In this document: positions 3,214 through 30,986 of the stretch, in pieces | How positions within the stretch are numbered: the stretch's first letter is position 1 | Layout of the letters: each line of letters opens with the position of its first letter | Virus record (IMG/VR): IMGVR_UViG_3300042883_000146 | Location: 1-62,045 of that record | Origin: a virus | Direction: 5' to 3' (one strand) | DNA: 62,045 nt | Made by a program: the position numbers and the translations under genes | Notes under the pieces: generated by a model | What the model was told of the DNA's origin: nothing | Databases searched by the model: none | What the model saw: the letters and a program-made list of their open reading frames with translations, nothing else

Positions 3214-3220
3214 TTTATTT

Positions 3221-10773: not shown

Positions 10774-13700
10774 CTATCGTATACCATATTGTGATTGCAT
10801 TTTTATTCCTAAGTCTTTTGCAAGATTTGGATAGAACATAGGAAGAAGACTTGCAAATTGATTAGTAACTGGAAAAGATCTTAGCCAATACTTAATGACA
10901 AAGTTTTTATCTTCTAATTCTTGATTACCTGTAGCTATAGCATAGTTTTCTGTCATAAATTTTGTAACCATATTTTTATAGTTATCAACTAAACCTAAAG
11001 AAGGAAATATACCACTGGATATTAATCCAGTTAAATTAGTTGGATTATAAAAATATCCAAGTTCATCTTTAAATTTATCTACAGCCTTTAGTGCAAATTT
11101 ATATTGGTTCTTAACAATAGGATCATCATCATCATCTGGAAGAGCTTTTAAACCTAGAGCTAAAGCAAACAAAGAAGCATAAACTAATGCATCTAATAAT
11201 TGATTTTTAATGTTCTGTCTAACAAGATCCATAAATTCACTTTCAGTCATCTCAAGAACTTTACCTGTATCATTTTCATAATCAGCTTTTTTCTTTTCAA
11301 ATAATTCTCTCATATATTCCACCCCTTTGTCATTAGCCATAAGAGAATTACTTAGTCTACCTAAACTTTTTAATAAATCTTCAGATATGATTCTAAAAAC
11401 CATTCTTGATCTTCCCCATTCATATGCATCTGAAGCAGCATTGTATTTCAAATTACCCATACGAACATCAATCAAACGAGGTATCCAATTCTTGAATACC
11501 ATGAAAGAGTTTCCATATATGGTCATATTAATAAGTCTTTTGTTTTCTTCTGTTAAAGATCCTAGTGCATCACTAGTAAATTGTTGAATCTTTCTTCTTG
11601 TTTCAATAACACTATCAGACTTTTGTTCAACTTCAGGAATAACAAACTGACCATCCTTAACTTCTCCTAGCTTTAACACTCCTTGTTTTTCTACAAGATC
11701 TTTAACATCCTTTTCAAACTTTTCTGCTCTTGCATCTCTTTCACTTTGAGTACCTGCATAAAAATCTTTATACTCAGGGGTACTTTTAAGATATTGTCTA
11801 GCGTTAACTACTTCACCGTTTACTACAGCAGAATTTCTTATATAAGCAAAGAAGTTAGTCACTTGTACTGACTTCTCTCCTTCTCTCATTAGTACCATTA
11901 AATAGTCTTGAATAGCTTGATCATCCACCTTGTTTAAAGATAGTTTTCTAGCTGCATCTCTATTGTAATTTTCTGTAAAAGGAATAAAGTAATCTAATGC
12001 TGCAAGCATTTTTAACTTGTCTTCTGCTCCACTCATCTTATTAGCACCAAGCCACATCTCTGCAGAAATGTAATCTGTTTTTGTAAAATACACTCCTGCA
12101 TTAATTAATGACTGAGTCTTACCTCCAAACAAGTTAGATGCAGAAGATAGAACGTTTAATCCTAAAGCAGTCACTTGAAAAGTATTATTCATCTGAGTGA
12201 TGATTTTATTAATACTTATCTGTCTATTCTCTAAGTTTTCAGGTAGTAGTTTAAATCCTAATTTATTATTAATAGTTGATCCAAACTTACCAAACTTACC
12301 TAAGAGTTGATCGAAAGATTCACTCTCAATATATTTCTGTTGATAGATAATGGCTTTAACCATATTTTCTATCAGTTTTGTGTTCTCACTATTATCAGGA
12401 TTATATTGAAGCACTCCATCTTTATATTCAGTTTTACCAAACATAGATGTAGCAATAGCTTTTTTATTCTTCTCTAGTCTTATTAGAGCTCTACCTTGTT
12501 CTTCAATTTCTGATAAATACTTAAATTTAATAGCAAACTCATTATAGAGGGCCATAGTTTTAAATAAATCTGTAGATGCCTGATCTACATCTTCTAAAGC
12601 TGTAGTGAAGTATGTAGGAATAACATCAACAGGTTTACCTGTAAGAGGATCAATCTTTCCATAACCTATATCAGATTCATCTAAAGATATATTTTGTAAG
12701 AACTGTTCTCCTAAAGAAACCTTACCTCCAAATATTAACTTTTCAGATAGTCCTTTTCTTACCCAGGGTAAGAATGTTCTTGCTTGTCTAGCATTAATGT
12801 ATCCTATAGATTTATAATATTCATTTCTTTCTTTAATATAGTCATAGAATTTTAGAGCAGGAGCATTTTCAGGTTTATGAAGTTCTTTCCATTCGTTAGA
12901 CTCCCATTTATTTCTATTAGGAAATTTATTAATTTCATCATATAATAACCAACCTAAAGATTCTGGAGTGGATATATTATAAAGATCACTTGCTTTTTGT
13001 TTTTCTATTTTAATATCTCTATCATTCTTTTCTTGAGTATCCACTCTAGGTTTATTTTCTATTCTTTCAAACTCTTCTGCTTTCTTTTTTTCTAAATGTT
13101 CTTTATAAGCTTGTTGATCTACATTGTCTCTAATCCATGCAAAGTCTCTAGAGTCTTTGTTTATTGCAGACTTTAGTTCTTTATAAAACTCAGGATTAAA
13201 TTCATCTATGAGTTCATTTTTATTTTTCTTTTTAATAATATCAAACATGTTCTTAGCTGACAATCCTTTAGATGTAGCCCATTTTTGATATTCATCTTTT
13301 AATTCTGTAAGTTTTTTAACTTCTGTAAACGTATCCATTCCAGAAAAAGCAAAAGCTTTGTTAGCTTTTTTAAATAAAGTTTCTAATCCTTTAAGTTGAA
13401 TAGTAGCAGTGTTACCTAGAAACTTAGTTATACCTCTAACAATTTTTTCAGGAGAAGAAAGATTATTTATATTTTCACTTCCCCCAATAATATCATTAGT
13501 AAATTCTTTATCAACTTTTTTTAATTGTTCTTTAAATTTTCTAGCTTCATTTGCAGATTTTCTTAAATCTTTTTCCAACTGTGAATCTTCTTCAGTTAAT
13601 TCTTTACCTTCAAATAAAAAATCAAGCTGAGTATCTAAATCAATATAAGTTTCTAAAGATTCTAAGGATGTACCAAGGCTTTGTGCAAAATCAGAAATTT

Positions 13701-16485
13701 GATTTTGATCAAATGACTTAGCATCCTTACCTTTGAATTGAGTTGTATATTTATTAATAATATCTGAAACTTGTTTATTTAATATCTTAGCTTGATAAAT
13801 TAATGGAGCAATATTCTGCTTCATTTGTAATTGTCTAATTGCAGAAAATAAAGCATTTAACTGTTCAGCTTTAGATTGTTTTTCTTCTGATAACACTTTT
13901 GTTTCAGAAAGTTTTTTATAAATGGCATTAAGTTTTTCTAATAAAGTATCAATCTCCTCAACATTTGTTTTTTCAGCTTCTAACCCTACAGGAATTAAAA
14001 AATCTTCTTGAATATTTTTAACATTAACATCTCCTATTCTTACATCAAGTAATTTTGGAAGTATGTTCTTTTTAGCATTAGCCTTAGAATACACTGCTTT
14101 AATAGGAATCATTCTTGTCTGTTCAAAATTCTCATTTTTAACATTATAAGCATTATTTATAATATACTTATATTGTTCCATTTGAGTATTCCAAGCATTC
14201 ACTTTATACCAAGGAATATCAGTGTATTTATCAATATCAAGATCCATAAACTTCCAATCAAGGATGTTCACTTTACCTTCAGGAGTGATAGCCATAAAAT
14301 CTATTGTACCAGCAATATCTCTTTTAGCATCATATATAGTTGTTTCAGAAAGAAATTTTGTACCAACAGGAAAAGATCTTAATCTATCTAATAGATTATC
14401 TCTAAGTGTAATGTACATATCATTATCATCTTTATTAAGAAGAGATGTGTAATCATCATTTTTTATAGCTTCATTTATTTCTGCAGGACTTTTTAATAGT
14501 CCATCTGAGTTTACAAACAAATCAAAAGCATACTCAAGATCAGCATGTCCTGCAGTTCCTTTTTCAGCTTTTAAATCATCTACAGCAGTTTGAAATTCTG
14601 ACTTAGTTAAATCTTTGTTTTTAAATCTTCTTTCATACCAATCTTCTACAAGATCGCTAACACGTCTACCTATCTTTTTACCATTAAACGCATATCCTCC
14701 CTGATTAGGTAGTTTTGTGATTTTAGAATTAACAGCTTTAATGTTATCAATAATTTGATCTTGTTTACTTTGACCAGCTTGTTGTAAGAACACTCCATCC
14801 TCTACAATGTCTTCAGCTGTACCAATATCTTTACCAGAAAGAATATCCATAGCAACTTGATCAAATCCACTTGTAGCAAATAGTCCTTTAAAATATTCTA
14901 ATATTTGTTTCCACCAAGATTGTACATTCTCTAACAACTCAGGTTTTTCTGTGGAACCTTCTGATTTATTAATTACCACTTCAGCTAACACTTTACCTAT
15001 AGCTTCTTCTTTAAGCTTTATAACATCAGGTTTACCATCTTTTCCTTTATAATTAGCATTGGTAGAATATTCTATAAATACATCTTTAAGAATTCTGTAT
15101 TTATTAATCTCACCCATTAACTTTTTATACAAAGCTGGGTTTGTTTGTTTAATTATTGATACAGCAAAGTGCATAGCTTCTTCTGGAAGAGCTGTAGCTT
15201 CTTTACCTTCTACCACTTGTACTAATTTTTGAGTAAGATTAGCAACAGCATTAGCATCTAGCTTAACACCATCAACAACCACTTGCTTTACACCTTTTAC
15301 ATCTACACCAATACGTTTTAAGAAATCATTAACAATAGCAATAGTTTTAGGAGATGCAGTTGAAGATACAGTGGTTCCTTCTAGTTGAAATAATGTTAAT
15401 TGGTTTCCAGGTTTAGCAACAAAGTTTTTAAATCCTTTTATATCCTTTTCATTTCCTAATATGTGAATTTGTTCTGGTTCAAATACTGCAAGTTCATCTC
15501 CTAATACACTTTCTTTTTCAAAATAACTATCAGCATTAGGATAATTATCTTTATAAAATTGCTCACCCTCTTCTAGTTGAATAGGATTCCGCATATTCAA
15601 TAAATTAGCTATTACTTTACCATAATCTTTAGCTTGATTATAAGATGTAGTAAAATGAACAGCTCCATACTCTCCAGTATTATATTTTTCAAAAGTATCT
15701 CCTTTAATACCATGATAAACAATATCCTTTACTTTACTATCAGGAAATATACTATCTAAGTATTGAGAATATTGTTCAGGTGTTCCTATAGATGCTAACT
15801 CTGGATTAGAATTAAAGAGTTCTTCCACTCCAGATTTTTGTCTTATGTTACTCATCCTACGAAGAGCTTCCTGGTTTATTCTATCTTCATACTGCCCAAC
15901 AGATTCTCCACTGTTTTTAAAAATGTACTCATGAGCCTTTTCATGAAGAAGTGCAAAAGTTAAAAACTCATCTAATGTTTTAAACTCATTTTCTGATAAA
16001 GCTGTTGCCTGACTTCCATCAGATAAAACTGCAGGAGTTGTCCAAGCCTTATCTTTAAACTTTTGTGTAAATAGATCTTTTACAAATAAAAACTTTTCTC
16101 CTTTATTTACATTTCTAAATGCAACAGGCACTTCTCTTTCTGTAGGTATCTCAGCAACAAAATCAACTACAGTATTTTGAAAAGATTTATTTTTTTCAAG
16201 ATCATCTAAAGTGGTTAATTTATCTATAATTCCTCTATCTATAAACGGAGCTTTTTCTAACCTAAGTTCATGGTTGTAATAAACATTAACTAAAGAATCA
16301 GGAATCCTAATATCACGATCAATGAAATCACCATTCAAACTAAATGACACAACTGGTACACCATAATTTTGATTCACTTTCTTAGCAACAGCTTGAGCTC
16401 CTTCTATAGATAGATTGAATCCAGAGTCTGTATCTGCTGAAACTTTATTAGTAAGTTTTTCTTTTATTTCAATTTTACAAGGCAT
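10774..16485 (-). CDS. Polyvalent virion protein: zincin-like, ART-like and PD-(D/E)XK nuclease-like domains
   Basis: The 1903-residue protein lies 11 bases after the giant RNA polymerase. A zinc-metallopeptidase motif HEKAH occupies residues 181-185 in the context FALLHEKAHEYIF. An ADP-ribosyltransferase-like block follows (VYHG with H258, then YGAVHFTTSYNQAKDYG). A PD-(D/E)XK nuclease-like block comes later: GTIDFMAITP, then NILDWKF with D743-W-K745, and QMEQYKYII. Long coiled-coil regions lie at about 870-1190, and a hydrophobic segment near 1780 (LVYASLFALALGLKAL) is followed by DDDDDP. Such mixtures are typical of polyvalent proteins that are injected with phage DNA. Which activities are live is unknown. 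It probably travels inside the virion together with the polymerase. Confidence 0.75.
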   Translation of the reverse strand: MPCKIEIKEKLTNKVSADTDSGFNLSIEGAQAVAKKVNQNYGVPVVSFSLNGDFIDRDIRIPDSLVNVYYNHELRLEKAPFIDRGIIDKLTTLDDLEKNKSFQNTVVDFVAEIPTEREVPVAFRNVNKGEKFLFVKDLFTQKFKDKAWTTPAVLSDGSQATALSENEFKTLDEFLTFALLHEKAHEYIFKNSGESVGQYEDRINQEALRRMSNIRQKSGVEELFNSNPELASIGTPEQYSQYLDSIFPDSKVKDIVYHGIKGDTFEKYNTGEYGAVHFTTSYNQAKDYGKVIANLLNMRNPIQLEEGEQFYKDNYPNADSYFEKESVLGDELAVFEPEQIHILGNEKDIKGFKNFVAKPGNQLTLFQLEGTTVSSTASPKTIAIVNDFLKRIGVDVKGVKQVVVDGVKLDANAVANLTQKLVQVVEGKEATALPEEAMHFAVSIIKQTNPALYKKLMGEINKYRILKDVFIEYSTNANYKGKDGKPDVIKLKEEAIGKVLAEVVINKSEGSTEKPELLENVQSWWKQILEYFKGLFATSGFDQVAMDILSGKDIGTAEDIVEDGVFLQQAGQSKQDQIIDNIKAVNSKITKLPNQGGYAFNGKKIGRRVSDLVEDWYERRFKNKDLTKSEFQTAVDDLKAEKGTAGHADLEYAFDLFVNSDGLLKSPAEINEAIKNDDYTSLLNKDDNDMYITLRDNLLDRLRSFPVGTKFLSETTIYDAKRDIAGTIDFMAITPEGKVNILDWKFMDLDIDKYTDIPWYKVNAWNTQMEQYKYIINNAYNVKNENFEQTRMIPIKAVYSKANAKKNILPKLLDVRIGDVNVKNIQEDFLIPVGLEAEKTNVEEIDTLLEKLNAIYKKLSETKVLSEEKQSKAEQLNALFSAIRQLQMKQNIAPLIYQAKILNKQVSDIINKYTTQFKGKDAKSFDQNQISDFAQSLGTSLESLETYIDLDTQLDFLFEGKELTEEDSQLEKDLRKSANEARKFKEQLKKVDKEFTNDIIGGSENINNLSSPEKIVRGITKFLGNTATIQLKGLETLFKKANKAFAFSGMDTFTEVKKLTELKDEYQKWATSKGLSAKNMFDIIKKKNKNELIDEFNPEFYKELKSAINKDSRDFAWIRDNVDQQAYKEHLEKKKAEEFERIENKPRVDTQEKNDRDIKIEKQKASDLYNISTPESLGWLLYDEINKFPNRNKWESNEWKELHKPENAPALKFYDYIKERNEYYKSIGYINARQARTFLPWVRKGLSEKLIFGGKVSLGEQFLQNISLDESDIGYGKIDPLTGKPVDVIPTYFTTALEDVDQASTDLFKTMALYNEFAIKFKYLSEIEEQGRALIRLEKNKKAIATSMFGKTEYKDGVLQYNPDNSENTKLIENMVKAIIYQQKYIESESFDQLLGKFGKFGSTINNKLGFKLLPENLENRQISINKIITQMNNTFQVTALGLNVLSSASNLFGGKTQSLINAGVYFTKTDYISAEMWLGANKMSGAEDKLKMLAALDYFIPFTENYNRDAARKLSLNKVDDQAIQDYLMVLMREGEKSVQVTNFFAYIRNSAVVNGEVVNARQYLKSTPEYKDFYAGTQSERDARAEKFEKDVKDLVEKQGVLKLGEVKDGQFVIPEVEQKSDSVIETRRKIQQFTSDALGSLTEENKRLINMTIYGNSFMVFKNWIPRLIDVRMGNLKYNAASDAYEWGRSRMVFRIISEDLLKSLGRLSNSLMANDKGVEYMRELFEKKKADYENDTGKVLEMTESEFMDLVRQNIKNQLLDALVYASLFALALGLKALPDDDDDPIVKNQYKFALKAVDKFKDELGYFYNPTNLTGLISSGIFPSLGLVDNYKNMVTKFMTENYAIATGNQELEDKNFVIKYWLRSFPVTNQFASLLPMFYPNLAKDLGIKMQSQYGIR

Positions 16486-16496
16486 AATATAATATA

Positions 16497-19400
16497 TTAT
16501 TTACAAGTTTCTGATGATCTATCAATTGGAGGAAGTCCTTCTGGAGCATTAATATCAGTGGATGGTTGTGTAGATGCTTCTGTTGGTAAAGGTACATCTT
16601 CCATTGTAATTTCCTCACCATAGTATTCAATTATATCTTCATTAGGAATAATTTGGTTCATTATAACTGTACCATTTTCTATTACAGAAGGTCTAAAATC
16701 TTCATAGAATTCAGAAGCTCTATCTCCATCTCCATATAAATTGATTAACTTATACACATGCTTAATATCTCCAGATTTATCTATAGTGGTGAGGGGAATA
16801 TTAGTGTTAGGATAATTAACTCTAGCATAGCCATATACATCTTTAAGAGAATAATCACCTTTTGCCTTTCTTAATGCATAATCAAGTTTAGTTACAGACA
16901 ATCCTGTTTTTATATCAATGCTGTCTCCAGTACCTTCATCTGTAATCACTCTAGGAACTTTAAGATAATTTTTTTGAGAAGCTATATAATCATACATTGT
17001 ACTAACAAGTAATATTTTTCTTTCAGTAGATTTAATGTTAAATGCTTCTAATTTAGGAAACATAGATGAGTAGTATAAATAAATATCTGCATAATGATTT
17101 CCAAAAGAATCTAACTGTACACTATTTGGAGTGGCTGCATCTCCTTTAAACCTAACACTTACATCCCTAAATCTTGGTTGGAATGTAGGCATTATGTCAT
17201 CATTCTTAAAATTATTAGCATGAAACATTCCTTCAGCAAATGCATCAAGATTTTCATCATTAGCTAAACTAATAATTACAGGTCGTACAATATCACTATA
17301 GTCTTCTATAGGAATAACATTCTTAATAGATATAGCAGATTGATAAGTTCCTTGTAGAATAGATACATAGATGAGATCTTTGTATAATTGATTTAACTCA
17401 TCATTGTAATCTCTAAGTTCTCTCATCATGCCTACATACATATTATTGTCATAAGCATCTTTAGTGTTAGCTATTAACTTTACACTTTTAGCACCATCAG
17501 GTCTATCTCCACTAACAACTTGTAGCTCTCTAAGTATTTGTATATCTGGATAAGCTTTCTTTGCTTTTTCCAGTCTCACTGCTACAGAAGTATTTGGATC
17601 TATTAATAGCTCTTTAATTCTACTATTAACTCCTATCTTAGTTTGAATAATATAATCTAAGAAATCTGCTTTCACCTTGTTAGATAATTTTTCAAAATCA
17701 TCTGCACTCATGAAAGGATTTTCTCCAAAAGGTTGTAATATTTTATTAGTGATGGCTCTAAAATCATCTTCTTCTAATTTAAATATAGCCCCCATTGATT
17801 GCATAGACTTACCTAAGAATTCTTTTTGTTTTCCAATAAAGGTGTTATCTAAGATGTTATCTACAGAATAGATGATGTTTGTGTTACTTGCAATTTCAGT
17901 GTTCCAAGTTTTTCTATCATATACACTACTATTATTAAAAGAAGAAGTGTCGTAGTTAGTTGCTTGTGTAAACTTAAATGCATACTCAGCCATCTTAGCA
18001 TATTTCAAGAACTCATTAAAAATTACTTCTTGTTCAGCATATTGTTCAGCATTAAGCATTTCATTTTTATTACTATAGTAATCTTTAATGTTTTGTTCAA
18101 GTTTAGTTATATCAAATGTAGTTCCAACAGATTCTTCTAGTTTTTCTCTTTCTCCACCAAATTGATTTTTAATCTTTTCAATGTTATTTGCACCAAATAA
18201 ATTCTTTTGTCCTGTACCATCTAACATCTTTAGATATTCAGAAATGATTGGTTGGTTTAAGAACATTGCAGCTTGTTCTCCTGAACCTATATTTTCTAAG
18301 AACATGAATGTTCCTACAACAAGATCACTCTGTACAACATCAGTGATGTATGGCTTATTAGCCACATCCACAAAGGCTGTAGCATATCCTGATAGTCTAT
18401 TGGATATAAGTTCCTTGCCATCTTTTACAGTGGTTCCTGAGAGAGATATATAAGGTTGACCATTCACCATAGTGGTGTTATGCTTTAGTTTAATAATTCC
18501 ATCTCCTAAAATCTTTTGATCTCTTAATGAAACATTTACAAATCTTGCAGGATCAATATACACTTGACTCTTTTGTTTTAAAGAAAGATTGGTGATGTTC
18601 ACTGCTGCAATACCCACCCATCTTTTAGCTGTAACAAATGCATGTCTCAACTTAGTCATGTAGTTCCTATCAAGAATTCTATTCTTTATAAGATTTTCAT
18701 CATATCCTCTAAGAGAGTTTAATTTTTCAGAAAGTTTTTCAAGTCCTGCGTCATTTACTGGAGATATTAAACGATCAAAGTTTTCTGGAAGAGTGATGAG
18801 TTTCTCTAAAGAATCATAGTATTCATTCTCTAAAGATTTTTTATACATGTCCTTTACATATTTTTCTTTATAGAAAGATTGTAAAGATGAATCCTGAAGA
18901 TCTTCTATTTCTTTTATTATAGATTCTTCTGTGTTTATATAATCTTCAGCTCCTGAAAGAAGTGTAGATATAAACTCTGAATATTTTTCAGAAAGATTTT
19001 TAGGATCTTTTAAATCATATATAGTAATCTGTAATGCTTCTAACAACTCAGATTTTTTAAATGCTTTATTTACTAAAGTGTCTTCAAATACTTTACCATA
19101 AAACTCTTTAGTATCTGCCTCAGAGTCTAAATACTTAACAAGTCTAACATTTCCAGTTCTATCTACATAAGTAGACTTTAAGTACATGTTCAACTTATCA
19201 ATATCAAAGTCACTTCCTGCTTTGGTTGTAATCTCAGAAGGTACCACTACTGTTGCTCCCATGTATTGTGGAAGAAATCCTTTCACTTTAAACACTTCCA
19301 CAGAACTTAATGCCTGTGTAGGAATACGAAATCCTATTCCTGTAAGAATAGCTTTTCCTTCTTTAGTTTCGTTTAAATATTTAAGAATAGCTTTATCATT

Positions 19401-22400
19401 AGGAAACTTGGTTTTGTTTTTAAACTTGTCTTTAAACCAGTGTGGAAGAAGTATTTCACAATAAGGAGCATCTTTAGTATAGAACTTAAGTGTGCTATCT
19501 GTAAGAGCTACTTGTTTCTTTTGGTCATCAGAAAGTTTATTGTATTGTTCTTTAGAAATCTTCACCCATCCTTTATCTGTTTTCATTGTAAGCTCTCTGC
19601 CTTTAGTAGCAGATTCAAACATTGTTACAGGTACTTGAACATGTGATCCTCCTGACATCTTAGGTCTAAGAATAGCCTTATCAATCATAGAATACATGAT
19701 ATTTCTAATCTGTAAGTAAGAAGGAGCTGCTTCAAATGGAATTCTGAATTGATCATTTTCATCAAGTTGAATAGCATCAATAGTATTATCAGATACATCT
19801 CTTCTTAACATCTCATACATCAATGTTTCAGAAACAGCTTTACCATTTACAAGTTTGAAACCATTATCCATATCTTCTACTCCAAGCTTAATTAAAAGCT
19901 CATTGTAGGCATTCTCATGCATCTTATTTAGAATATCTGTATTTCTTTCGTACTCAGCTTTTGCTTCTGGACTAGTTGGAACACCATTATCAAACAAATC
20001 CATAGAAGCTAATTTAACTAGCTGAGATCCTCTGGTTTGTTCTTTCTCTCCTTCTGTAGCAGTTTCTACTTGAATACCATAAGATTTCCAAGGAACACTA
20101 ACAATTGTATCTTTAGCAAATGCTTCTGTATTAAATGATCCATCAGCATTATATAAACTATATGTACTATCTACCCCCACCTTTCTACCAGACTCAACAA
20201 CAGCATAACCAATTCCTTGTTTGAACATTTGCTCATACATCTTTTCAAGATTGGTTCCTTTAACCATACTGTAATAAATAGGCATCTGTGAAAACTTATC
20301 TAATACAAGATTAATTTTGTTTTCTCCAAACTTATTTCCAGATACAATAGGCTTTAACACTTCTATAATATGTTTAGGAGCATCAGTTTTTAATAAAGCT
20401 TCATCATGTTTTGCAAGAGCTTTTCCTCTAGCATCTTCTGAATATTTAAAACTTGGAAAATTTTGTCTTGTAAAAGCCATTTGCCACTGATGCCAATCTT
20501 CAGCTTGATCAGTCCATTGACCATTTTTTAATTTAATTTCTCTGTATGTACCATCCATTAACCAAGAAGCAGCATCTGCTTCATTAGTATCTCCATACGC
20601 TTCTAGAATATTAGATAGACTGCCTACAAGTTTTACATCTGTAAGACTAATAGTTTTAGTGTAAGATTTAAATGCTTGATAACCATAATCACCTGGTAGT
20701 AGTTGTATACCATCCACTTGATTTGCATTCTCATTTAAGTATGTATTGTATTCTGGAGAATCAAATGTAACCCTGCGTGGAGATAAGAAAGACTTAATAC
20801 GTTTAGTCTCATCTAACTTAGCTCCTTTAATTGCAAACTGATATGGATCTCCAAATAATATTTTATGGTATTCAATATTATTAATAATATAATTAACGTT
20901 AGCAAATGTTACTATATCATTTAAAGTTTTTTCTGATAAATTATTTTTATTAAACTTTTCTTTAGTAGCAAAAGCATCTACAAGACTTGGATAAGCAAAT
21001 GTATCTTCACCCACTTGAAATGCTTGGCTATTAGCTATCAACACATCTTTAGTAGCTTTTACAGTATTTTGAATATAAACTTGTATAGCTTCATTAATCT
21101 CTCCAATATTTTCTTTACTATTAATATACTCCTCAATTTGTTCTTGAGTAGCATTAGCTTCAATCATATTATTGATATCTTCTAATTGTTTATCAAATAA
21201 AATATCTTTAAAGAATCTTAATTCTTTTGCTTTACCTTTTACATTCTTTAATTGTTTTCTATTATCTGCATCTAAAGCTAAAGTAATATCATCTGATAAA
21301 TATCCTCTGAATATACTATTGATATTACTCAAAGCTTTACCACTTTCTATACTCTTAAGAGAAACATTGTTACCAAGATTCATCATCCACTCTGTAGAAC
21401 TATCTCCAGGAAGTAGAATATAATAATTACCTTCTAGATTATTATTAATTTCTTGAGTAAATCTTTCTCCTAGTCCTAATTTAGTAGTTTTGTATCCTTT
21501 GTTATCATCTAACTTTTTAGTTCCTTGTATATATCCTATCTTAACTTCTTTAATTCTATTACCATCTTTATCAAAAAACAATCCTCCTTTTTTAAGTACT
21601 TGAGAGTTTGCTGAGAATATATCGTTTAACTCAGGACGAGATGCTAAAAGTTCATCTAATGTATTTGCTTCATTAAACTCATTCTCAAATACAGAAGGAG
21701 CATTACTATCTGAGAAAGAACCAATACGTTGATTCTCCACACCAAAATAAGTACTCTCTTGATTAGGATTTGTAACCTTATTATAAAGTTCAGCTAACTT
21801 AGTAATACGACCATCCACTCCTAATGTCTCTCCAGTTACACTCATGATACTTGGAGTAGTTCCTAAGTATTTATAAATTGCATCAACAGCTTCTGAAAAG
21901 CTTTGTTTTTGATACTTCTTTAAATTAGTGTATACATCAAACTCAAAGTTAATTCCAATATTACCTAAGAAAGCAATTTGATCTTTAGGTTTTTTTACAG
22001 ATATTTCTTTTAGTTTTTCAGAATCAACATTGTAAGTTTTATTATTTTTATTGTATTTAATAAATCCAGCAGAATCTTTAGCAATAGCTTTAATGTTCTC
22101 TACCCACCCTTGTTTGGTTTGTTTAATAGCTGTAAACAAATTAGCAGGAGCTATGTAAACTTCATTACCTGTTTTATATTGAATTAATGCATCAGGCTTT
22201 TGTTTAGTAAACGTTTGATAGAACTGTATAAAGTATTTCCAATCATCATTTGTAAATTCATTAAATGGAATATGTTTAGTTACTTTTCCATTTGCTCTGT
22301 CTAACTTTCCACCCACTCTAGAAAACAATCTAACATAGTTAGGATCATCAAAAGATAAATCGTAAAGTTTATCTACCATCTTAGATACAGAAGTGGTATT

Positions 22401-25400
22401 AGATAATTTACCTAACACTGTAGAAAATGCTCTACTAAAGTTTAATAATCTATATCCACCTATAGAGTTATCTGTTTTTGCTAATGGTAACTCTAATACT
22501 AGAGATCCATCTTCTTGATTAGTAGCAAATGTTTCTAATAAAGTTGATAATGAAAACTTAATTGCACCTGAAGAATTCTTTTTCCAATCTGTTGAAAAAG
22601 GTTCAGGAGAATAATCTCTATTAGTTTGATCATCATTAATTTCTTCTTCTTCATTAAAAGTTATACCTAATGTACGTAATGATTGTTTGGTTTTAACTTT
22701 TAATTCTTTCCAAGTTTCTTCTCCTAATAGATCTAATCTACTAAACCCATCTTCATTTACTTCTTCAGAATATTCTTGTTCAATTTGATCAAACATTTGA
22801 TCTGCAGTGATAGATAAAGGATTGAATAATAATTTCTTATCTCCTTCTGTAAATAGAATACCTGCAGCTCTAGCTGTCATATCTTGAACAAACTCATATG
22901 TTTGTTGTTCTGTTAAATTAGCAGCAGCTCTGTATTCAGCAAACTCATTATCTTTAGGTTGTCTTAGTTCCCTTTCTTTAAACTTTCCTGTATCAATTGC
23001 TTTAAATAATTCTTCTTTTAAAGAAGGATTAGTTCCAAAAGTTTTAAAGAAATCCATAATCATCTTAAAGAATCTACGAATTCTTTCTCCTAATGATTTA
23101 GCTGGAAGTTTTCCCAATCTATAATCAGCAAAATCATCCATGATTCTTTCTTTAAGAATCTTATCAGACACTTTAGCATCATCATATGAATAAGTTTTAC
23201 CAGAAGCTCTATCTTTAAATGTTCCAGGTCTAGCTCTTTCTTGATCAAGTATGGCTTGTTGTTCTTCAGGAGATAGCATACCATTCCAAATAGCTTCACC
23301 TATCTCATGATATTCAGTACCTCTAAGTCCACCTTTAACAAACTTAACTATATTGTTTTCAAATACACCCCAAGCTTTTTCTCCTGTATTAGTAGTGATT
23401 ATATTTTCAAGAACTTCATAAGGAATAGTAGCTGCATTAGCTGCATGCCATTCTTTAAATAACTGAAGATCAGCATCAGTCATTCTATCTTTCTTATCTA
23501 GTCCTACAGTTCTATATTGGTTTTTAGGTTTAAATCCTTTAAACTTATTTGCATCTGGCTTCTTAGGAACTTCTGGTTCCTTTTCTTCTAAAACAACTTC
23601 TTCTTTCTCTTCAACTACAGGAGCTGGAACTTGTTCTACAGGAGCTTGAGCTTTTAATTTTGTTGATAAATTTGCAGAAATTATATAGCTAATATATTGT
23701 GCAACTTGTTCTTCATCTTTTTGTGTTGCATCAAACTGATTTATTTGTTTTAATGTAGGAATTACATTATCATTTAACAATGTAGGATTTTTTGCTATTG
23801 ATTCTATAACAGCTGTATTATTTTCACTACTAACTAAAGTGACAATTACATCTTTTTCTGCAGATGGTACAGCTGTAAATTCTATATCTCCAGCTTTAAG
23901 TTTATACTTATTAGGAGTGGTGCCATCTAATTCAAATCCATCTACTACAGGAACTTGAATAGTTTCAACAGGAGCTGCAACAACAGGTTTAGGTACCACC
24001 TTCACTACAGGTAATTCTAAACCTTCCAATGTAGCATATTTTTGTTTGAAGGAATATGGCACTGATTCTGTAGACTTAGCTACAGAAGTGCTAAGAGGAG
24101 TTTCAGAGGATGGTCTAGAAGGACCACTAGGATAGTTTGCAGATAGTAAATATGTTTGATAATTAGTCCATTCACTAGTTGTAAAGGTTCCTGTTTTATC
24201 TATATAGAATTCAGTAAAAGGTTCATTAAAGTTTTTCTTTAATGTTTCGTTATTTACATTATTATATATTTCTTGTAACTGATTAACTATCTGAGTTTCA
24301 TTTTTTACAATTTCAGTTAGTGGATAAGATTCTTTACCAAGATCAATAGCTAAATCAGAAACATTAATACGTATCTGATTGTCTCCCATTGCTCCTGCTT
24401 TATCTTTCCAGAACAATATATTTTGTAAAAAATAAGAATACTCTCTATTAATTCTAATAGTTTTACCAGCTTCAGATTGAGAAATCATATCTGCAGCAAG
24501 AGCTTTTATAACTTCAAAGATTCCTTTTGCTTCTCTATTATTAAACTTTTTATTATTTAAAAATTGTAAAGTGTCTCCATACTGAAGTACAGGAACACCA
24601 TTAGGATATTTAAGAATTTGTCCCTTGTGTGTAACTGATCCTGTTGTAGGAATAACAATAAGTCCTTCTTGAGTAGATATTTTATTTTCAGGAACTAGTA
24701 TTCCTCCCACTTGATTCTTCTCAACTATACCATCTGCATTTTTTATTTCAATAGGAATTCCTCTTGAAACATCAAATGAATAACTTGTAACAGTATTAGC
24801 TGGAGCTGAAAACAATTGTTCTCTTAATATTCTCCATCCTTTAGCAGCTGCTTCAAATTCTTCTTTTTGATCTTCTCTATACCTAGGTCTTCCTGATCCA
24901 TCTTTAGTTTCAGTAGTAGGCATTCTTTTAAATACCACTTGTTCAAGATCTACTTGCTCTCCTAATTTAGTAAGAGGTTTTCCTTCTTTGTTTACAAAGA
25001 ATAAATCTTTTCCTTTTTGTATTACAAATACTTGAACAATTAAACCCTTGTCTATATCTAAGACTTTATCTATATCTTCAAGAGGAGTGTTAGCATCTTT
25101 ATTATAAGACATTTGTGCTAAACCAGTTAATCCTAAATCAGCCATTTGATTAGGAGTGACTAGTATAGACTTCATCTGTCCTCTATTAGAGAAGTTGTTA
25201 ATATTATTTAAAAACTCTACAGACCTTTTAATGTAAGGAGCACTCTTAGTAGGATCATTATCATTTTCATTTTCTCCTACACTTGATAAAAAGAATATAG
25301 AAAAATCTTTTAATTTACCTTCTTGTCCAGTAAACTCAAGAGTGGAAGTATCAGGTGTGGAAACAGTTCCTGAATTAAGTTGTAATGCAGTTTGTTCTTT

Positions 25401-28310
25401 ATTAATTTGCTCAGAATTTTTTAGAAGTTTTTGTTTTTTTGCTTCTTCTTCTTCTCTAAGTTTTATTAATTCTTTTGTTTGATCGTTAAACTCTTTTTCT
25501 ACATCATCAATAAGAGCTTGATTATCTAATGCATTTATAAAATCTAATTTAGTTTCTCCAGGAGCTAATTCAATTCCACCTATTTCTGAATACTCAGGTC
25601 TAGCTATCACTGTATCAATAGCCTTATTTAAAATATCTGTAAACTCTTCAGATCTATTTTCTTTATCAGAGATGTTATATTCTTTAAACTCAGTAGGAGT
25701 GAGAAATTTAATCTTACCATTAGGAAGTCTCACTTCAAATTCTCCTCCTAATGTTTTAGCTACTACAGTGATTTTAGGAGCAAGTTGTAACGCAGTTCCT
25801 TCTTTTCTTATAGGTTCTTTTAAGGAATATTCTTTACCTATTTCAAGTTCAGCATTAACTATCTTAGTTTTCTTTTCTCCTTCAAGTTTTTCTTTTTGTT
25901 CTACTACAGCAGGAGAAGTGTCTATCTTTTCATCAGCACCATATCCTCTACCATAAGTATAGTTTAATGGATTCTTTTTAATATCATCATATTCCTCTAT
26001 AAATAACTTTCTACGAAGAGATAATTCAATAATATCAGACAGTTGAGTTTTAAGTTCATCTTTAACATCAGAAGTTACATCTAGTTCATTAATTTGTGAA
26101 AGAACTTCTTCTGTAGCTATTTTGTTTGCTTTACCATCTTTAATAATACTTTGAAGTACATCCATTGTAGATACACCTGCTTGAGACAGTCCACTATTAA
26201 CTAGAGGAATACGTAAATCATAATCAGCAATCTTACTAGAAGCATATACCAATTTATCAATAACCTCATCAGAATACTTTCTTAATTGTTTTCCATCAGG
26301 ACTTAAAATAGGAGCACCTTCTGCATCTGTTAATATCTCTCCAGAATATCTTAAATTAATAGCTTTATATAATTGTTCTGTATTTTTAGCTGTAGTTTCT
26401 AATGTAGAAAGTCTTTTTTGAAAAGAAGAAATGTCATCATTAATGTTAGCTAGTCCTTGTTCTTTTAAGGAAGCTAGTCCTTGCTCAGTAACACCTGTTT
26501 GTTTTAATTCTGCTAGATCATCCATCACCATATCAAACCTACCATACTTGATACGAGGAGCTAAATAGTTATGTACTAAATCTGCTTTTATATCTTTTGC
26601 TTCTAATTCATCTCCAGAAATAATTGCATCTTGTTGTTGTTTTTGTAAAGTCACCCCTCTGTTTACAGAAGAAAGTCTGTCAATAAATGCTTCTTTAAAT
26701 GATGGAGTAGAATTAAGGGAATTGATAAATTGTTGAGTGTTAGTGGCTACAGATTTATCTTGTAAGTAATTACCTTTAGCCTGCATTATTCCTCCAGTGA
26801 TACCTCCAAGAATTCCTCCTTCAATACCTTCTTTAGAAACTAATGCTCCTACATCTTTACCTGTTTGATCTGTACCAAATAAGCCATATAAAAATCCATC
26901 AGTTAATATATCAGCATCATCTGATTCTCTAGATTTATTGAAGTAATTATTAGTACCCACTTGCAAAGCATATTGTCCAATCTCTTGACCTGCTTCTTTT
27001 GGATCAAATACATATTGACCCACTCTTTTTGTTTTCTGGTATAGTTTACCAAACTTAGTAACAGGAACTTTAGCACCATATACTCCACTCTTTAGAAGTA
27101 CATCATCTGCTTGGCCCACTAAACTATTTGCAGCTTGTTTACTTGCTCTATAAGAAGATCCCATTAAGTAAGGAAGTTGAGCAAATTCTGTAACAGATAG
27201 TAATGCTAGGTTTCCAAAAAAAGAAGTTTTACCCACTTTCTCTGCCTCCATATTAATACTTTCTAATTCTGCCCCTGTAGGCTCATTACCATAGTTTTCT
27301 AATTTATATTTTTCAATTAAATTATTTCTAAATTCATTAGCTGTTTGTAAAGCTTCAAAAGAAGCTTCTCCTGCAGAAGAATAAGCAGCAACAGCTGTAC
27401 GTCTAGCAGTATCATTAATAGTAGCAAATAGATTAGTTGTCTTTGCAAGTTCTGCTAGTCTTGAAGATTTAGCTGTGATGTCTGCAATAGAAGAAACTCC
27501 TTTATCTAATATAGCAGCAGCTTCTTTATTTTTGGCAACAGAAAATGCTCTTGCACTATTTCTCAGTATAGGTGTAAATAATTTAAAAGCCTGAGAAGAA
27601 CTTGCTGCAGTTCTAGCTGCAAGAGCTCCTGCAACTTTTCCTAATCCTCTACCTGCTACATTCACTGCAGCATTGGCAATGTTACCACTAACCATTGCTC
27701 CTACAGCATATCCACTATTTTTGATTAATTTATCAAATAGGAAATTAGCTGTCATCCAGTTATCTGTAGAATACCAAGCTGATTCTTTCTCTACATCAGA
27801 ATAATAATTTGGAAGATATTCTTGATCCACTTTATTATTCCATTTGTCTAAATTTCTTAGTCCTTCATTATCCCATATATCAGCAAGCCTTCCAGTAAAT
27901 GCAGCACTCACTGTACCCCCTAACATAGCAAAGCCTCCAGCAATTGTTGTAGCTGCAAGATTAGTACCTTTTAAAATACCATTAACTCCTTTTGATAAAA
28001 CACTTTGATTATAAGAAACATAATCCTCTTGATTAGAAACTATAGGATTAAACTTTTCATACCTCTGGTTTGATTTTAAAACAGCATCTGTAATAAATCT
28101 TCCCTTTTCTTTAAAATCAGCATTCTTAGATAAATTGTTTAATATATCATATGCGTCATCAGTAGCATTCTTTTGTAAAGTGGTGTCACTAAAATCACTT
28201 CTTCCTACATCTATTCTTGGTGCAGGAGTTACTTCATTTAGATCTACTCTTTCCATAGGAATAGCAGTTTCTTTTATAATAGATTGAAGATTTTTATCAA
28301 AATCTGGCAT
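16497..28310 (-). CDS. Giant virion RNA polymerase (crAss-like, DFDID-type)
   Basis: The 3937-residue protein carries DFDID at residues 3034-3038 (context AGSDFDIDKLNMYL), the metal-binding active site of single-chain double-psi beta-barrel RNA polymerases known from phi14:2 gp66. An upstream block near residue 2885 (KMSGGSHVQVPV) fits the partner barrel. The N-terminal ~1500 residues contain Gly/Ala-rich hydrophobic stretches (about 107-140 and 490-510) that could help delivery through the tail. A Pro/Glu-rich linker lies near 1550-1580. A zincin-like helix HEIGE (1668-1672) lacks the second His of HExxH and is perhaps inactive. In crAss-like phages this enzyme is packaged and transcribes early genes after injection. 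It is much longer than phi14:2 gp66 and may combine parts split over several genes elsewhere. Confidence 0.88.
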   Translation of the reverse strand: MPDFDKNLQSIIKETAIPMERVDLNEVTPAPRIDVGRSDFSDTTLQKNATDDAYDILNNLSKNADFKEKGRFITDAVLKSNQRYEKFNPIVSNQEDYVSYNQSVLSKGVNGILKGTNLAATTIAGGFAMLGGTVSAAFTGRLADIWDNEGLRNLDKWNNKVDQEYLPNYYSDVEKESAWYSTDNWMTANFLFDKLIKNSGYAVGAMVSGNIANAAVNVAGRGLGKVAGALAARTAASSSQAFKLFTPILRNSARAFSVAKNKEAAAILDKGVSSIADITAKSSRLAELAKTTNLFATINDTARRTAVAAYSSAGEASFEALQTANEFRNNLIEKYKLENYGNEPTGAELESINMEAEKVGKTSFFGNLALLSVTEFAQLPYLMGSSYRASKQAANSLVGQADDVLLKSGVYGAKVPVTKFGKLYQKTKRVGQYVFDPKEAGQEIGQYALQVGTNNYFNKSRESDDADILTDGFLYGLFGTDQTGKDVGALVSKEGIEGGILGGITGGIMQAKGNYLQDKSVATNTQQFINSLNSTPSFKEAFIDRLSSVNRGVTLQKQQQDAIISGDELEAKDIKADLVHNYLAPRIKYGRFDMVMDDLAELKQTGVTEQGLASLKEQGLANINDDISSFQKRLSTLETTAKNTEQLYKAINLRYSGEILTDAEGAPILSPDGKQLRKYSDEVIDKLVYASSKIADYDLRIPLVNSGLSQAGVSTMDVLQSIIKDGKANKIATEEVLSQINELDVTSDVKDELKTQLSDIIELSLRRKLFIEEYDDIKKNPLNYTYGRGYGADEKIDTSPAVVEQKEKLEGEKKTKIVNAELEIGKEYSLKEPIRKEGTALQLAPKITVVAKTLGGEFEVRLPNGKIKFLTPTEFKEYNISDKENRSEEFTDILNKAIDTVIARPEYSEIGGIELAPGETKLDFINALDNQALIDDVEKEFNDQTKELIKLREEEEAKKQKLLKNSEQINKEQTALQLNSGTVSTPDTSTLEFTGQEGKLKDFSIFFLSSVGENENDNDPTKSAPYIKRSVEFLNNINNFSNRGQMKSILVTPNQMADLGLTGLAQMSYNKDANTPLEDIDKVLDIDKGLIVQVFVIQKGKDLFFVNKEGKPLTKLGEQVDLEQVVFKRMPTTETKDGSGRPRYREDQKEEFEAAAKGWRILREQLFSAPANTVTSYSFDVSRGIPIEIKNADGIVEKNQVGGILVPENKISTQEGLIVIPTTGSVTHKGQILKYPNGVPVLQYGDTLQFLNNKKFNNREAKGIFEVIKALAADMISQSEAGKTIRINREYSYFLQNILFWKDKAGAMGDNQIRINVSDLAIDLGKESYPLTEIVKNETQIVNQLQEIYNNVNNETLKKNFNEPFTEFYIDKTGTFTTSEWTNYQTYLLSANYPSGPSRPSSETPLSTSVAKSTESVPYSFKQKYATLEGLELPVVKVVPKPVVAAPVETIQVPVVDGFELDGTTPNKYKLKAGDIEFTAVPSAEKDVIVTLVSSENNTAVIESIAKNPTLLNDNVIPTLKQINQFDATQKDEEQVAQYISYIISANLSTKLKAQAPVEQVPAPVVEEKEEVVLEEKEPEVPKKPDANKFKGFKPKNQYRTVGLDKKDRMTDADLQLFKEWHAANAATIPYEVLENIITTNTGEKAWGVFENNIVKFVKGGLRGTEYHEIGEAIWNGMLSPEEQQAILDQERARPGTFKDRASGKTYSYDDAKVSDKILKERIMDDFADYRLGKLPAKSLGERIRRFFKMIMDFFKTFGTNPSLKEELFKAIDTGKFKERELRQPKDNEFAEYRAAANLTEQQTYEFVQDMTARAAGILFTEGDKKLLFNPLSITADQMFDQIEQEYSEEVNEDGFSRLDLLGEETWKELKVKTKQSLRTLGITFNEEEEINDDQTNRDYSPEPFSTDWKKNSSGAIKFSLSTLLETFATNQEDGSLVLELPLAKTDNSIGGYRLLNFSRAFSTVLGKLSNTTSVSKMVDKLYDLSFDDPNYVRLFSRVGGKLDRANGKVTKHIPFNEFTNDDWKYFIQFYQTFTKQKPDALIQYKTGNEVYIAPANLFTAIKQTKQGWVENIKAIAKDSAGFIKYNKNNKTYNVDSEKLKEISVKKPKDQIAFLGNIGINFEFDVYTNLKKYQKQSFSEAVDAIYKYLGTTPSIMSVTGETLGVDGRITKLAELYNKVTNPNQESTYFGVENQRIGSFSDSNAPSVFENEFNEANTLDELLASRPELNDIFSANSQVLKKGGLFFDKDGNRIKEVKIGYIQGTKKLDDNKGYKTTKLGLGERFTQEINNNLEGNYYILLPGDSSTEWMMNLGNNVSLKSIESGKALSNINSIFRGYLSDDITLALDADNRKQLKNVKGKAKELRFFKDILFDKQLEDINNMIEANATQEQIEEYINSKENIGEINEAIQVYIQNTVKATKDVLIANSQAFQVGEDTFAYPSLVDAFATKEKFNKNNLSEKTLNDIVTFANVNYIINNIEYHKILFGDPYQFAIKGAKLDETKRIKSFLSPRRVTFDSPEYNTYLNENANQVDGIQLLPGDYGYQAFKSYTKTISLTDVKLVGSLSNILEAYGDTNEADAASWLMDGTYREIKLKNGQWTDQAEDWHQWQMAFTRQNFPSFKYSEDARGKALAKHDEALLKTDAPKHIIEVLKPIVSGNKFGENKINLVLDKFSQMPIYYSMVKGTNLEKMYEQMFKQGIGYAVVESGRKVGVDSTYSLYNADGSFNTEAFAKDTIVSVPWKSYGIQVETATEGEKEQTRGSQLVKLASMDLFDNGVPTSPEAKAEYERNTDILNKMHENAYNELLIKLGVEDMDNGFKLVNGKAVSETLMYEMLRRDVSDNTIDAIQLDENDQFRIPFEAAPSYLQIRNIMYSMIDKAILRPKMSGGSHVQVPVTMFESATKGRELTMKTDKGWVKISKEQYNKLSDDQKKQVALTDSTLKFYTKDAPYCEILLPHWFKDKFKNKTKFPNDKAILKYLNETKEGKAILTGIGFRIPTQALSSVEVFKVKGFLPQYMGATVVVPSEITTKAGSDFDIDKLNMYLKSTYVDRTGNVRLVKYLDSEADTKEFYGKVFEDTLVNKAFKKSELLEALQITIYDLKDPKNLSEKYSEFISTLLSGAEDYINTEESIIKEIEDLQDSSLQSFYKEKYVKDMYKKSLENEYYDSLEKLITLPENFDRLISPVNDAGLEKLSEKLNSLRGYDENLIKNRILDRNYMTKLRHAFVTAKRWVGIAAVNITNLSLKQKSQVYIDPARFVNVSLRDQKILGDGIIKLKHNTTMVNGQPYISLSGTTVKDGKELISNRLSGYATAFVDVANKPYITDVVQSDLVVGTFMFLENIGSGEQAAMFLNQPIISEYLKMLDGTGQKNLFGANNIEKIKNQFGGEREKLEESVGTTFDITKLEQNIKDYYSNKNEMLNAEQYAEQEVIFNEFLKYAKMAEYAFKFTQATNYDTSSFNNSSVYDRKTWNTEIASNTNIIYSVDNILDNTFIGKQKEFLGKSMQSMGAIFKLEEDDFRAITNKILQPFGENPFMSADDFEKLSNKVKADFLDYIIQTKIGVNSRIKELLIDPNTSVAVRLEKAKKAYPDIQILRELQVVSGDRPDGAKSVKLIANTKDAYDNNMYVGMMRELRDYNDELNQLYKDLIYVSILQGTYQSAISIKNVIPIEDYSDIVRPVIISLANDENLDAFAEGMFHANNFKNDDIMPTFQPRFRDVSVRFKGDAATPNSVQLDSFGNHYADIYLYYSSMFPKLEAFNIKSTERKILLVSTMYDYIASQKNYLKVPRVITDEGTGDSIDIKTGLSVTKLDYALRKAKGDYSLKDVYGYARVNYPNTNIPLTTIDKSGDIKHVYKLINLYGDGDRASEFYEDFRPSVIENGTVIMNQIIPNEDIIEYYGEEITMEDVPLPTEASTQPSTDINAPEGLPPIDRSSETCK

Positions 28311-28321
28311 ATTAATTTATT

Positions 28322-30898
28322 TTAAAGATTTCTAATAGTTTCTTTATCCTTCTCACTAATCAAAGGACTATTAAGATATAACTGTAAAGCTTGAGATTTT
28401 GTCATTTGATACAAATAAGGAATAGCTTGATCTCTAGTTAAAGGAGTGTCATCTAGTTTTAATGGAACTATTCCATTAGGAGTTTTTAATTGTAAACTAA
28501 TATATTGTTTAGTGTTATTAGTTTTATTCCAAACTAAGTCTGCTTTAATATCTAAAGCTGTATTAGGCATTTGAGCTCTTCCAAAATACGCAGTGCTATA
28601 TTGTCCTGTAGGATTAGTGCTTCCATTTCCCAAGTGTTGTGCTTTTACAACATCTCTATATTGTTCGTTTGGTTCATTACGATCATTTATTGGAAGTTGT
28701 CTAGCTTCTGAACTTTCTAATGGAATAGTTACTTCTTCTCCTCCCTTACCTAATATTAAAAAAGTTTGATCTCCTTGTACTAATTTTTTATATATAATCT
28801 TTTCCCTACCATCAGTACTAAGCCATTCTTTACCAGTGGCAATTTGACTCTGACTTAATTCTTTACTACCTCCTTCACCTTCATATCTACTCAACACTGC
28901 ATCAGCAATTCCTTCCCAAGATCTTCTCGCTATATCTCCCTCCCCACTACCAAAAGTGATAGTGGACATTCTAGGCACATAACTTCCATTACGTTCTAAT
29001 AAAGTGGATTGAACAAGTTCTTCTTTCTCTCTTGCAATTTTAGATAGTCCAGAAGAAACTGATTTAGATATTTGAAAAAATCTATTTTGATTAGTTGCAT
29101 CTAAACCTAAACTAAGAAGTTTTTCTTTTTCTGTAAGAGGTCTTCTAAATCTTTCAGAGGTGGTTCCTAAATAAGCACCTTGAGCTCCACCATAACCAGG
29201 AGTTTGAGTCACTTCTCTATTAGCTACATAGTTAGCAATTTCTTTAGCAGTAAAATTAATGCTTCTTCCAGCTCTATCTTTTACAGTTACTCCTGGTAGA
29301 TTTACTACATTACTAAAAACTTCTTGTTCTGCTCCTTTAAATTTATCATCCACTTCTTTAAAAATACCTTCTTTAGCTAATTTTAATCTTAAAGCTTTAT
29401 TTTCATTGTCTATAATAGCATCCACTTCATCTCTCCATTCAACAGGTATTGCTTTCTTACTATTACTATCTCCTATAACATACCAATTAGCATCTCCATT
29501 TTTATATTTTTCAATAGCAGCTTTAATTTGACTTGGAGTAGTTCCAGGAATTCCCTGTATCATTTTAGTTATTCCAGCATTAGCAGAAGACTCATACATA
29601 AGTTCATCTTTAACCATAGCAGATAAAGGATCTTTGACATTAGTGTTTTGACCTTTGTAAGTTTCAAACCCACTACTTACACCATTAAGTTCAATGTTTT
29701 GTTTTTGTATTTTAAGATCAGTTTCTATTTTATCTAAATTATAACCTCTTGTATCATTAAATTCTTTCCAATTTTGAGCTCTTTTAGATAATTCTAAATT
29801 AGCTCTAGTTATAGCATAAGTCTTTTCCCAATGCTGTGCATTTAATATAGGATTTTCAAGAAGGTTTTCTTTATTGTTTTCCCAAGCATAAGCATTGGCA
29901 AATTGTGAAATAGCACCATTCTTATAAATAGTAGATTTAGCTAAAGATGGATTAGCCATAACTAACTCTAATTCTTCTTTTAATTCAGAATTTAATTGTG
30001 AATTTTTATTCTCAAGACTTTCTATTATTCCTTGAAGTTGTTTTTGTTTTTCAGGATTTGAAGTACTTAGTCCCACCTCTCCTTGTAACTTTTGAATAAG
30101 TGAGTTATTAGATTCGATCTGAGAATTATATTTAGTATTAGAATACACTGCTAATTTTTCAGGAGTGTCATATCCCCTAAATTGATAATTAGCATTTATA
30201 GATAATTGATTTTGTTCATCAGGAGTTAAAGAAGCTCTAATTGCATTTTCAATCTTTGCTGCAGAAACTGTTTCCTTACTTATTCTCTGCATTGCTTCTG
30301 CAGTCTTTTGTCTGTTTACAGATCCATCTGCATTTGTTACATAAGGAATATCTTGTTCATTTAAATCAGAATGTAGACCTTTGAAAACTTCTAACCATTT
30401 TTTATCTACATCAATATATTGAGTATATCTATCTGAGAAAGAAGCATTAACATCATCAGCATTTAGATATGCATTTGCTTTTTGTGAAAAATCATAAATA
30501 TTAGCTTGAGAAGATTTACCCTCTCCAATTGCTTTTTCCATCTCTTGAGCTTGCTTTCTATACCAAGCTGTAGACTTCACTGCATTTTGAATAGTGGCAT
30601 CTTTACCAATTTGTTTAGCCATCCCCCCTACAGAATTAACTAACTGATAATTAGAGAAATCTCCAGCTGCTACAGTTTTTAACTTAGATCCTAATTCATT
30701 TAGTTTAGACTGAAGGTATTGCTGTTGTTTTTCATTTGCAATATCTAGTCCTGCAATGTTATCAATGTTAGTTTGAATCTTTTGGAGACCCTCGTCATAG
30801 CGTCTTTGTTTTTCCATACCAACTTGAACCATTGCCTCTATAGGCAATTGTTGGATGTATGGATTAAACTTTGGGGCAATATCTGTATATGAAGCCAT
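28322..30898 (-). CDS. Probable virion cargo protein upstream of the RNA polymerase
   Basis: The 858-residue, mostly helical protein (MASYTDIAPKFNPYIQQLPI) has coiled-coil stretches, for example around 270-310. It has no signal peptide and no recognisable catalytic motif. It ends 11 bases before the RNA polymerase start and is preceded by an 88-base gap that could hold a promoter. In crAss-like phages large proteins at this position are packaged in the head or tail as cargo and ejected with the genome. The assignment rests on position and size only. Confidence 0.65.
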   Translation of the reverse strand: MASYTDIAPKFNPYIQQLPIEAMVQVGMEKQRRYDEGLQKIQTNIDNIAGLDIANEKQQQYLQSKLNELGSKLKTVAAGDFSNYQLVNSVGGMAKQIGKDATIQNAVKSTAWYRKQAQEMEKAIGEGKSSQANIYDFSQKANAYLNADDVNASFSDRYTQYIDVDKKWLEVFKGLHSDLNEQDIPYVTNADGSVNRQKTAEAMQRISKETVSAAKIENAIRASLTPDEQNQLSINANYQFRGYDTPEKLAVYSNTKYNSQIESNNSLIQKLQGEVGLSTSNPEKQKQLQGIIESLENKNSQLNSELKEELELVMANPSLAKSTIYKNGAISQFANAYAWENNKENLLENPILNAQHWEKTYAITRANLELSKRAQNWKEFNDTRGYNLDKIETDLKIQKQNIELNGVSSGFETYKGQNTNVKDPLSAMVKDELMYESSANAGITKMIQGIPGTTPSQIKAAIEKYKNGDANWYVIGDSNSKKAIPVEWRDEVDAIIDNENKALRLKLAKEGIFKEVDDKFKGAEQEVFSNVVNLPGVTVKDRAGRSINFTAKEIANYVANREVTQTPGYGGAQGAYLGTTSERFRRPLTEKEKLLSLGLDATNQNRFFQISKSVSSGLSKIAREKEELVQSTLLERNGSYVPRMSTITFGSGEGDIARRSWEGIADAVLSRYEGEGGSKELSQSQIATGKEWLSTDGREKIIYKKLVQGDQTFLILGKGGEEVTIPLESSEARQLPINDRNEPNEQYRDVVKAQHLGNGSTNPTGQYSTAYFGRAQMPNTALDIKADLVWNKTNNTKQYISLQLKTPNGIVPLKLDDTPLTRDQAIPYLYQMTKSQALQLYLNSPLISEKDKETIRNL

Positions 30899-30912
30899 AG
30901 TCTTTAGGGATG

Positions 30913-30973: not shown

Positions 30974-30986
30974 ATAATTGAATTAA

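Follow-up and report, generated by a model that had tools for sequence, protein, structure and literature searches.

A giant virion-type protein joining a gp47-type cargo protein to an RNA polymerase, with a coupled HExxE form of the zincin-like site

Background

The locus described here raises the question of what a single viral protein of 3937 residues is composed of, and whether the protease-like motif in its middle is the remnant of a site or a site in its own right. The window is the whole stretch of DNA analysed, 62,045 nucleotides, corresponding to positions 1 to 62,045 of the IMG/VR record IMGVR_UViG_3300042883_000146. Large multidomain proteins were reportedly noted at this place by Yutin in 2018. 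In crAss001, mass spectrometry detected gp47, gp49 and gp50 in virions, and the cargo proteins were proposed to be ejected partly unfolded (PMC10172136). Virion packaging (PMC10172136) and transcription of early genes (PMC10136315) have been shown for homologues of the window protein, and crAss-like polymerase genes of up to ~6000 amino acids are mentioned in a review (PMC10136315).

Layout of the giant chain

A reading frame of 3937 codons occupies 16497..28310 on the minus strand; it opens with ATG and shows no internal stop in the translation. The single chain proposed by the first-pass annotation, which had left the strand unstated, is thus intact. DFDID at residues 3034-3038 (19197..19211, minus strand), the catalytic metal-binding loop, is the only DxDxD string in the chain. 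HEIGE at residues 1668-1672 (23295..23309, minus strand) is the HExxE motif of the active-site helix; as had been read earlier, the His-Glu pair is kept and the second His is gone, and a motif search of the whole chain found no HExxH. Both motifs are considered to be beyond chance because both are conserved.

Most of the chain lies outside the polymerase core, in agreement with the earlier reading; a gp47-type module and a zincin-like domain precede the polymerase. The N-terminal module covers residues 60-870 (25701..28133, minus strand). A Pro/Glu/Val-rich and poorly conserved linker at residues 1501-1590 (23541..23810, minus strand) is followed by the zincin-like domain at residues 1600-1800 (22911..23513, minus strand), which among relatives is as conserved as the polymerase core. 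The polymerase part, of the crAss001 gp50 / phi14:2 gp66 type, extends over residues 1860-3937 (16500..22733, minus strand).

The glycine-rich hydrophobic runs described earlier were reduced to one such stretch, at residues 118-136 (mean Kyte-Doolittle value 1.34), which together with a Pro/Val stretch at 1438-1456 (1.25) exceeded 1.2 when means over 19 residues were taken along the whole chain. Hydropathy did not support an N-terminus of transmembrane or signal type. Comparison of the giant chain with Pfam and PHROGs was uninformative, and no Rfam elements were found in the window.

The polymerase part

A phmmer search matched one solved structure, 6VR4 (phi14:2 gp66, E 1.7e-21), with DFDID aligned to DFDID. 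The motif is in register with that of phi14:2 gp66 and is invariant among the relatives, except for I/V at the fourth position. A profile of 58 sequences for residues 2400-3400 matched 6VR4 at E 7.1e-60 over 957 positions. The catalytic core (residues 2400-3400; 18111..21113, minus strand) was modelled with AlphaFold at a mean pLDDT of 87.4. With this model Foldseek placed 6VR4 on top (E 4e-29), followed by QDE-1 and RDR2. VIA-align gave Z 19.0 to 6VR4 (3.3 A over 764 residues), Z of about 13 to QDE-1 and RDR2, and lower values for phage and cellular two-barrel enzymes.

The RNA polymerase claimed by the first-pass annotation is thereby upheld across the catalytic core, and the double-psi barrel that it had expected around DFDID is present in the model. 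By homology and prediction, residues ~2400-3400 are a two-barrel polymerase of the crAss-like virion type (phi14:2 gp66) within one polypeptide. A virion RNA polymerase of the N4 type (T7-like, single-subunit) is ruled out, the core having two barrels and not the T7-like right-hand fold. The homologous single-chain two-barrel core is shared with phi14:2 gp66, but the window differs in that its polymerase follows, within one chain, a cargo protein of the gp47 type and a zincin-like domain.

The N-terminal part and the fusion

A tblastn search with the N-terminal part found crAss001 gp47; weaker homology was seen to phi14:2 g067 and to a protein of Leptolyngbya phage Lbo-JY46. When a profile of nine full-length relatives was compared with crAss001 gp47, model positions 80-869 and 1642-1704 matched gp47 residues 71-900 and 2131-2193. 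The latter segment of gp47, which is aligned to the HEIGE region, carries HEAFH. In the polymerase part (~2400-3450) the same profile matched crAss001 gp50, phi14:2 gp66 and cr108_1. The genes g067 (1797 aa), g066 (2180 aa) and g065 (1421 aa) of phi14:2 have the same order as in the window, and g067 and g066 together come close to the 3937 residues found here. The order of cargo genes, gp47/g067, RNA polymerase and polymerase-associated protein is found in the window, where the equivalence to gp49/g065 is one of position and of homology to cr108_1.

Because of these profile matches together with the order and lengths of the phi14:2 genes, the window protein is regarded as a gp47-type cargo protein and a polymerase in one frame, that is, a predicted fusion of two known virion cargo proteins. 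The odd 3937-residue protein is explained in this way. The N-terminal ~1500 residues, earlier suggested as a translocation region, belong instead to a known partner protein of the crAss001 gp47 / phi14:2 g067 type. In crAss001 gp47 the N-terminal module is homologous and the same zincin domain is found at the C-terminus, but gp47 and g067 are encoded by separate genes, whereas in the window the protein is fused to the polymerase. The zincin motif differs as well (HEAFH in crAss001 gp47, HEIGE in the window), and in g067 HExxH is absent and nothing matched the zincin region.

From two scans with the polymerase core, a segment lacking the zincin motif, 157 locus records were obtained, many of them on shared contigs. 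The N-terminal module, zincin and polymerase were found in one reading frame in 59 distinct relatives, with lengths of about 3650-5100 aa; the single exception, 3188 aa, lies at a contig end. The relatives L076 and L094 are split, and L009 has a frameshifted appearance. Fused giants also occur in gut Suoliviridae (cr50_1, 4774 aa; cr118_1, 4946 aa). In cr50_1, cr118_1 and cr108_1 the gp47-type zincin and the polymerase share one reading frame as in the window, but HExxH and an acidic residue 1720 are retained there, in contrast to HEIGE and K1720. The fusion as such is therefore already known in gut crassviruses and is not new.

The zincin-like domain

The AlphaFold model of residues 1575-1850 had an overall pLDDT of 83.9, rising above 90 near the motif. 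Its topology comprises strands, the active-site helix and then a helix (model positions 142-158) with K1720-E1721 (23148..23153, minus strand). A Foldseek search with the model gave no significant zincin match (best E 0.7). The top neighbours in VIA-align were almost all zincins, with PPEP-3 first (Z 7.2 over 128 residues, a range also seen for unmatched models). By the VIA-align calibration this value is weak on its own, and the assignment as a zincin therefore rests more on homology to relatives with HExxH at the same place (HEAFH in crAss001 gp47, cr50_1 and cr118_1; HESFH in cr108_1). The PPEP-3 / M34-type zincins are the best structural neighbours, with a fold-level resemblance at 14-16% identity, but they read HExxH where the window has HExxE. 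The zincin profile matched no chain among the PDB sequences, and Pfam gave chance-level matches to the 70 zincin members, with no peptidase family among the families listed. As in zincins, a candidate third-ligand Glu is found on the following helix with an acid four residues later (E1721 and position 1725); HExxH itself is replaced by HEIGE.

The zincin region was aligned for 70 sequences including the window, the relatives being 21-60% identical to it. H1668 and E1669 were invariant and E1721 was found in 69 of the 70. Residue 1672 was Glu in 53 sequences and His in the other 17, with nothing else. All 53 HExxE forms had H1668, E1669 and E1721, and always Asp or Glu at 1725. Judging from the alignment, the HExxE forms retain the third ligand and the general base as well as the side of the first His (H1668 with its acid at 1725). 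Among the first 75 codons read at 1672, Glu was encoded by GAA/GAG and His by CAT/CAC, which are two base changes apart; the one-step intermediates Gln and Asp were absent both from these codons and from the 70 aligned sequences. On trees of the polymerase core, built without the zincin motif, the number of state changes at 1672 ranged from 13 on the careful tree (at least nine forced by starred branches) to 15 on the quick tree. The coupled HExxE/Lys version is carried by most of the sampled environmental relatives, and 14 phage genomes from gut samples (Steigviridae, Suoliviridae and Dulem virus 41) have HExxH with Glu or Asp at 1720.

Coupling of residues 1672 and 1720

In the 70 sequences the column most associated with 1672 was 1720, directly before E1721. 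It was Lys or Arg in all 53 HExxE forms. In the HExxH forms it was Glu in 12 of 17, and Lys (2), Leu, Val and Asn in the other five. The combination of Glu at both positions was found in none of the 70. Residue 1720 followed 1672 in 12-13 of 13 independent pairs on the quick tree and in 8-9 of 9 on the careful tree, with no pair showing the opposite. Lys1676, on the same helix, accompanied E1672 in 33 of the 53 HExxE forms.

In thermolysin, Asn165 before the ligand Glu166 bonds His146 and Asp170, four residues after the ligand, bonds His142, and vibriolysin is alike (PMC3268031). In rat DPP III, Glu507 before the ligand Glu508 bonds the second His and Glu512 the first, and replacement of these residues weakens zinc binding (PMC3268031). 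By the logic of the sequence, positions 1720 and 1725 are the putative equivalents of these His-bonding residues, and from the known zincins we infer a contact between 1672 and 1720. Since known zincins bond their second His through the counterpart of 1720, a carboxylate-His pair would here have been exchanged for a Lys-Glu pair.

The site had earlier been called degenerate, a description that does not fit a motif which is strictly conserved in 53 of the 70 sequences and shows coupling with 1720. Because only Glu or His occurs at 1672, the ligand positions are kept, 1720 is coupled to 1672 and the domain is conserved at the level of the core, HExxE is best described as a conserved, putatively charge-compensated alternative site and not as decay. 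What is new is this coupled HExxE variant of the gp47 zincin site, the polymerase and the fusion being of known kinds; no published role for the coupled HExxE/Lys form was found in the literature.

HExxE was rejected as a sign of fusion, as fused gut phages and fused environmental relatives retain HExxH. Compensation by a second zincin downstream was also rejected. Apart from phi14:2 g065, a zincin-like HExxH is present there only in the window and in a single relative, and genomes of the HExxH type likewise have no such downstream copy; HELRH in L094 is unrelated.

Proposed mechanism and alternatives

In the proposed mechanism the fused chain would be packaged in the capsid as a unit and would pass the tail with the gp47 part first, partly unfolded, as proposed for the crAss001 cargo. 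The polymerase would refold in the cell and its DFDID core would transcribe early genes; the fusion would guarantee one gp47 per polymerase. The second His ligand would be replaced by Glu1672, with Lys now at 1720, its usual partner position. Most likely, the metal site would comprise H1668, E1672 and E1721 with E1669 as general base, its charge and metal preference being altered, and the HEIGE domain may act as a limited peptidase or processing domain on its own chain or on a partner during delivery. We consider it probable that the protein is a packaged gp47-RNAP fusion whose HExxE zincin is still a metal site with such a limited role.

Metal binding is favoured because general base and ligand positions are all retained, and because a precedent exists in the CLCA proteins, described as self-cleaving zinc proteases with an HEXXE motif (PMC6851300), although these are otherwise unrelated animal proteins. 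The main rival is a metal-free site in which an ion pair of Glu1672 and Lys1720 (and Lys1676) replaces the metal and maintains the fold, and the domain has no role beyond that of a scaffold, or of an interface linking the gp47 part to the polymerase. The strict pairing of Glu with Lys or Arg in 53 of 53 forms is compatible with this, the enrichment of Lys1676 would suit a simple salt bridge, and substituted zincins are often inactive yet conserved; in a survey of substituted HExxH sites, Lys, Arg or Leu, and not Glu, were enriched at the second His, and many such sites were regarded as inactive (PMC3650047). A metal-free site would, however, need none of E1669, H1668, E1721 and the acid at 1725, which are invariant in the same 53 forms, and the repeated changes between His and Glu also speak against it. 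It is held to be possible but doubtful. Decay of a zincin made redundant by the fusion would account for the loss of the second His in the window and most environmental relatives, but the conservation of the domain, the restriction of 1672 to two residues, the invariant ligand positions and the coupling to 1720 all argue against it. As fused gut phages retain HExxH, fusion does not make the zincin redundant. As a general account decay is already refuted by the alignment, the trees and the conservation of the domain, and it is very improbable.

The N-terminal ~1600 residues could alternatively be a dedicated, tape-measure-like translocation tail that is cut off by proteolysis to free the polymerase. 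The homologues are ejected cargo, one mildly hydrophobic Gly-rich stretch exists, and the virion RNA polymerase of P23-45 is fused to the tape measure protein (PMC10770324). P23-45 gp96 resembles the window protein in kind, as a chain of ~5000 aa joining a virion polymerase to another virion protein, but its polymerase is N-terminal, its partner is the tape measure protein and the structural similarity is much lower (Z 7). The region in the window is instead orthologous to gp47, a separate cargo protein in crAss001, its hydrophobicity is weak and a conserved cleavage site was not identified. Since crAss001 encodes gp47 and polymerase separately, neither depends on being joined to the other in cis; cleavage may thus occur but is not necessary. 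A dedicated tail of this kind is unlikely.

The zincins of crassvirus virion polymerases may have alternated many times between two functional sites, one being HExxH with an acid before the third ligand and the other HExxE with Lys or Arg there. This wider proposal is made tentatively, as a real possibility falling somewhat short of probable. If true, the charges of the second metal ligand and of its partner are exchanged in concert, so that nature has repeatedly re-engineered a metalloprotease site in an injected polymerase. Should both forms be active, they amount to natural experiments on the ligands open to a zincin; should the Lys form be inactive, an injected enzyme has been repeatedly lost or regained. 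In either case, a two-residue exchange would make it possible to test what gp47 does in the delivery of a polymerase several thousand residues long.

Variation among relatives and neighbouring genes

The relatives L003, L004 and L007 differ mainly by inserts, which measure 200-450 aa in the linker immediately N-terminal to the zincin (window equivalents 1567-1581) and 118-600 aa near the C-terminus, after the equivalent of 3900. In cr108_1 (L015, NC_055878.1) the fused polymerase gene is broken precisely at DFDID by a group I intron at 15479-15797 (RF00028, E 1e-20), the reading frames stopping and resuming at model positions 3034/3035. An overlapping frameshift, either an assembly error or real, splits the polymerase reading frame just before the core in L009 (17334-17374) and L021 (9155-9195). 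Five gut Suoliviridae (L178, L181, L182, L185 and L186) have in-frame stops within or beside the zincin domain even though each gene is annotated as one CDS, a pattern that fits stop-codon recoding. The cyanobacterial Leptolyngbya phage Lbo-JY46 (L176, PP438436.1) has, at 19734-32640, a gp47-type protein of 1552 aa (E 2e-21) adjoining a 2748-aa protein with HELAH and HEFMH and without a DFDxD string.

In the window the giant frame is preceded by a gene of 858 aa (28322..30898, minus strand), a conserved neighbour in the relatives. The next gene, of 1903 aa (10774..16485, minus strand), has the position of phi14:2 g065 / crAss001 gp49. Its residues ~361-1901 are common to the relatives and cr108_1, and residues 1-360 are extra and absent from the relatives. 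This extra N-terminus, with HEKAH at 181 and, at 255-323, a weak match to ART-PolyVal, resembles polyvalent-type proteins; near residue 740 the stretch KVNILDWKF has a PD-(D/E)XK nuclease-like appearance. Further along, at 8741-10405 and 6093-8693, are putative tail-fibre genes with long TSGTSG-type repeats.
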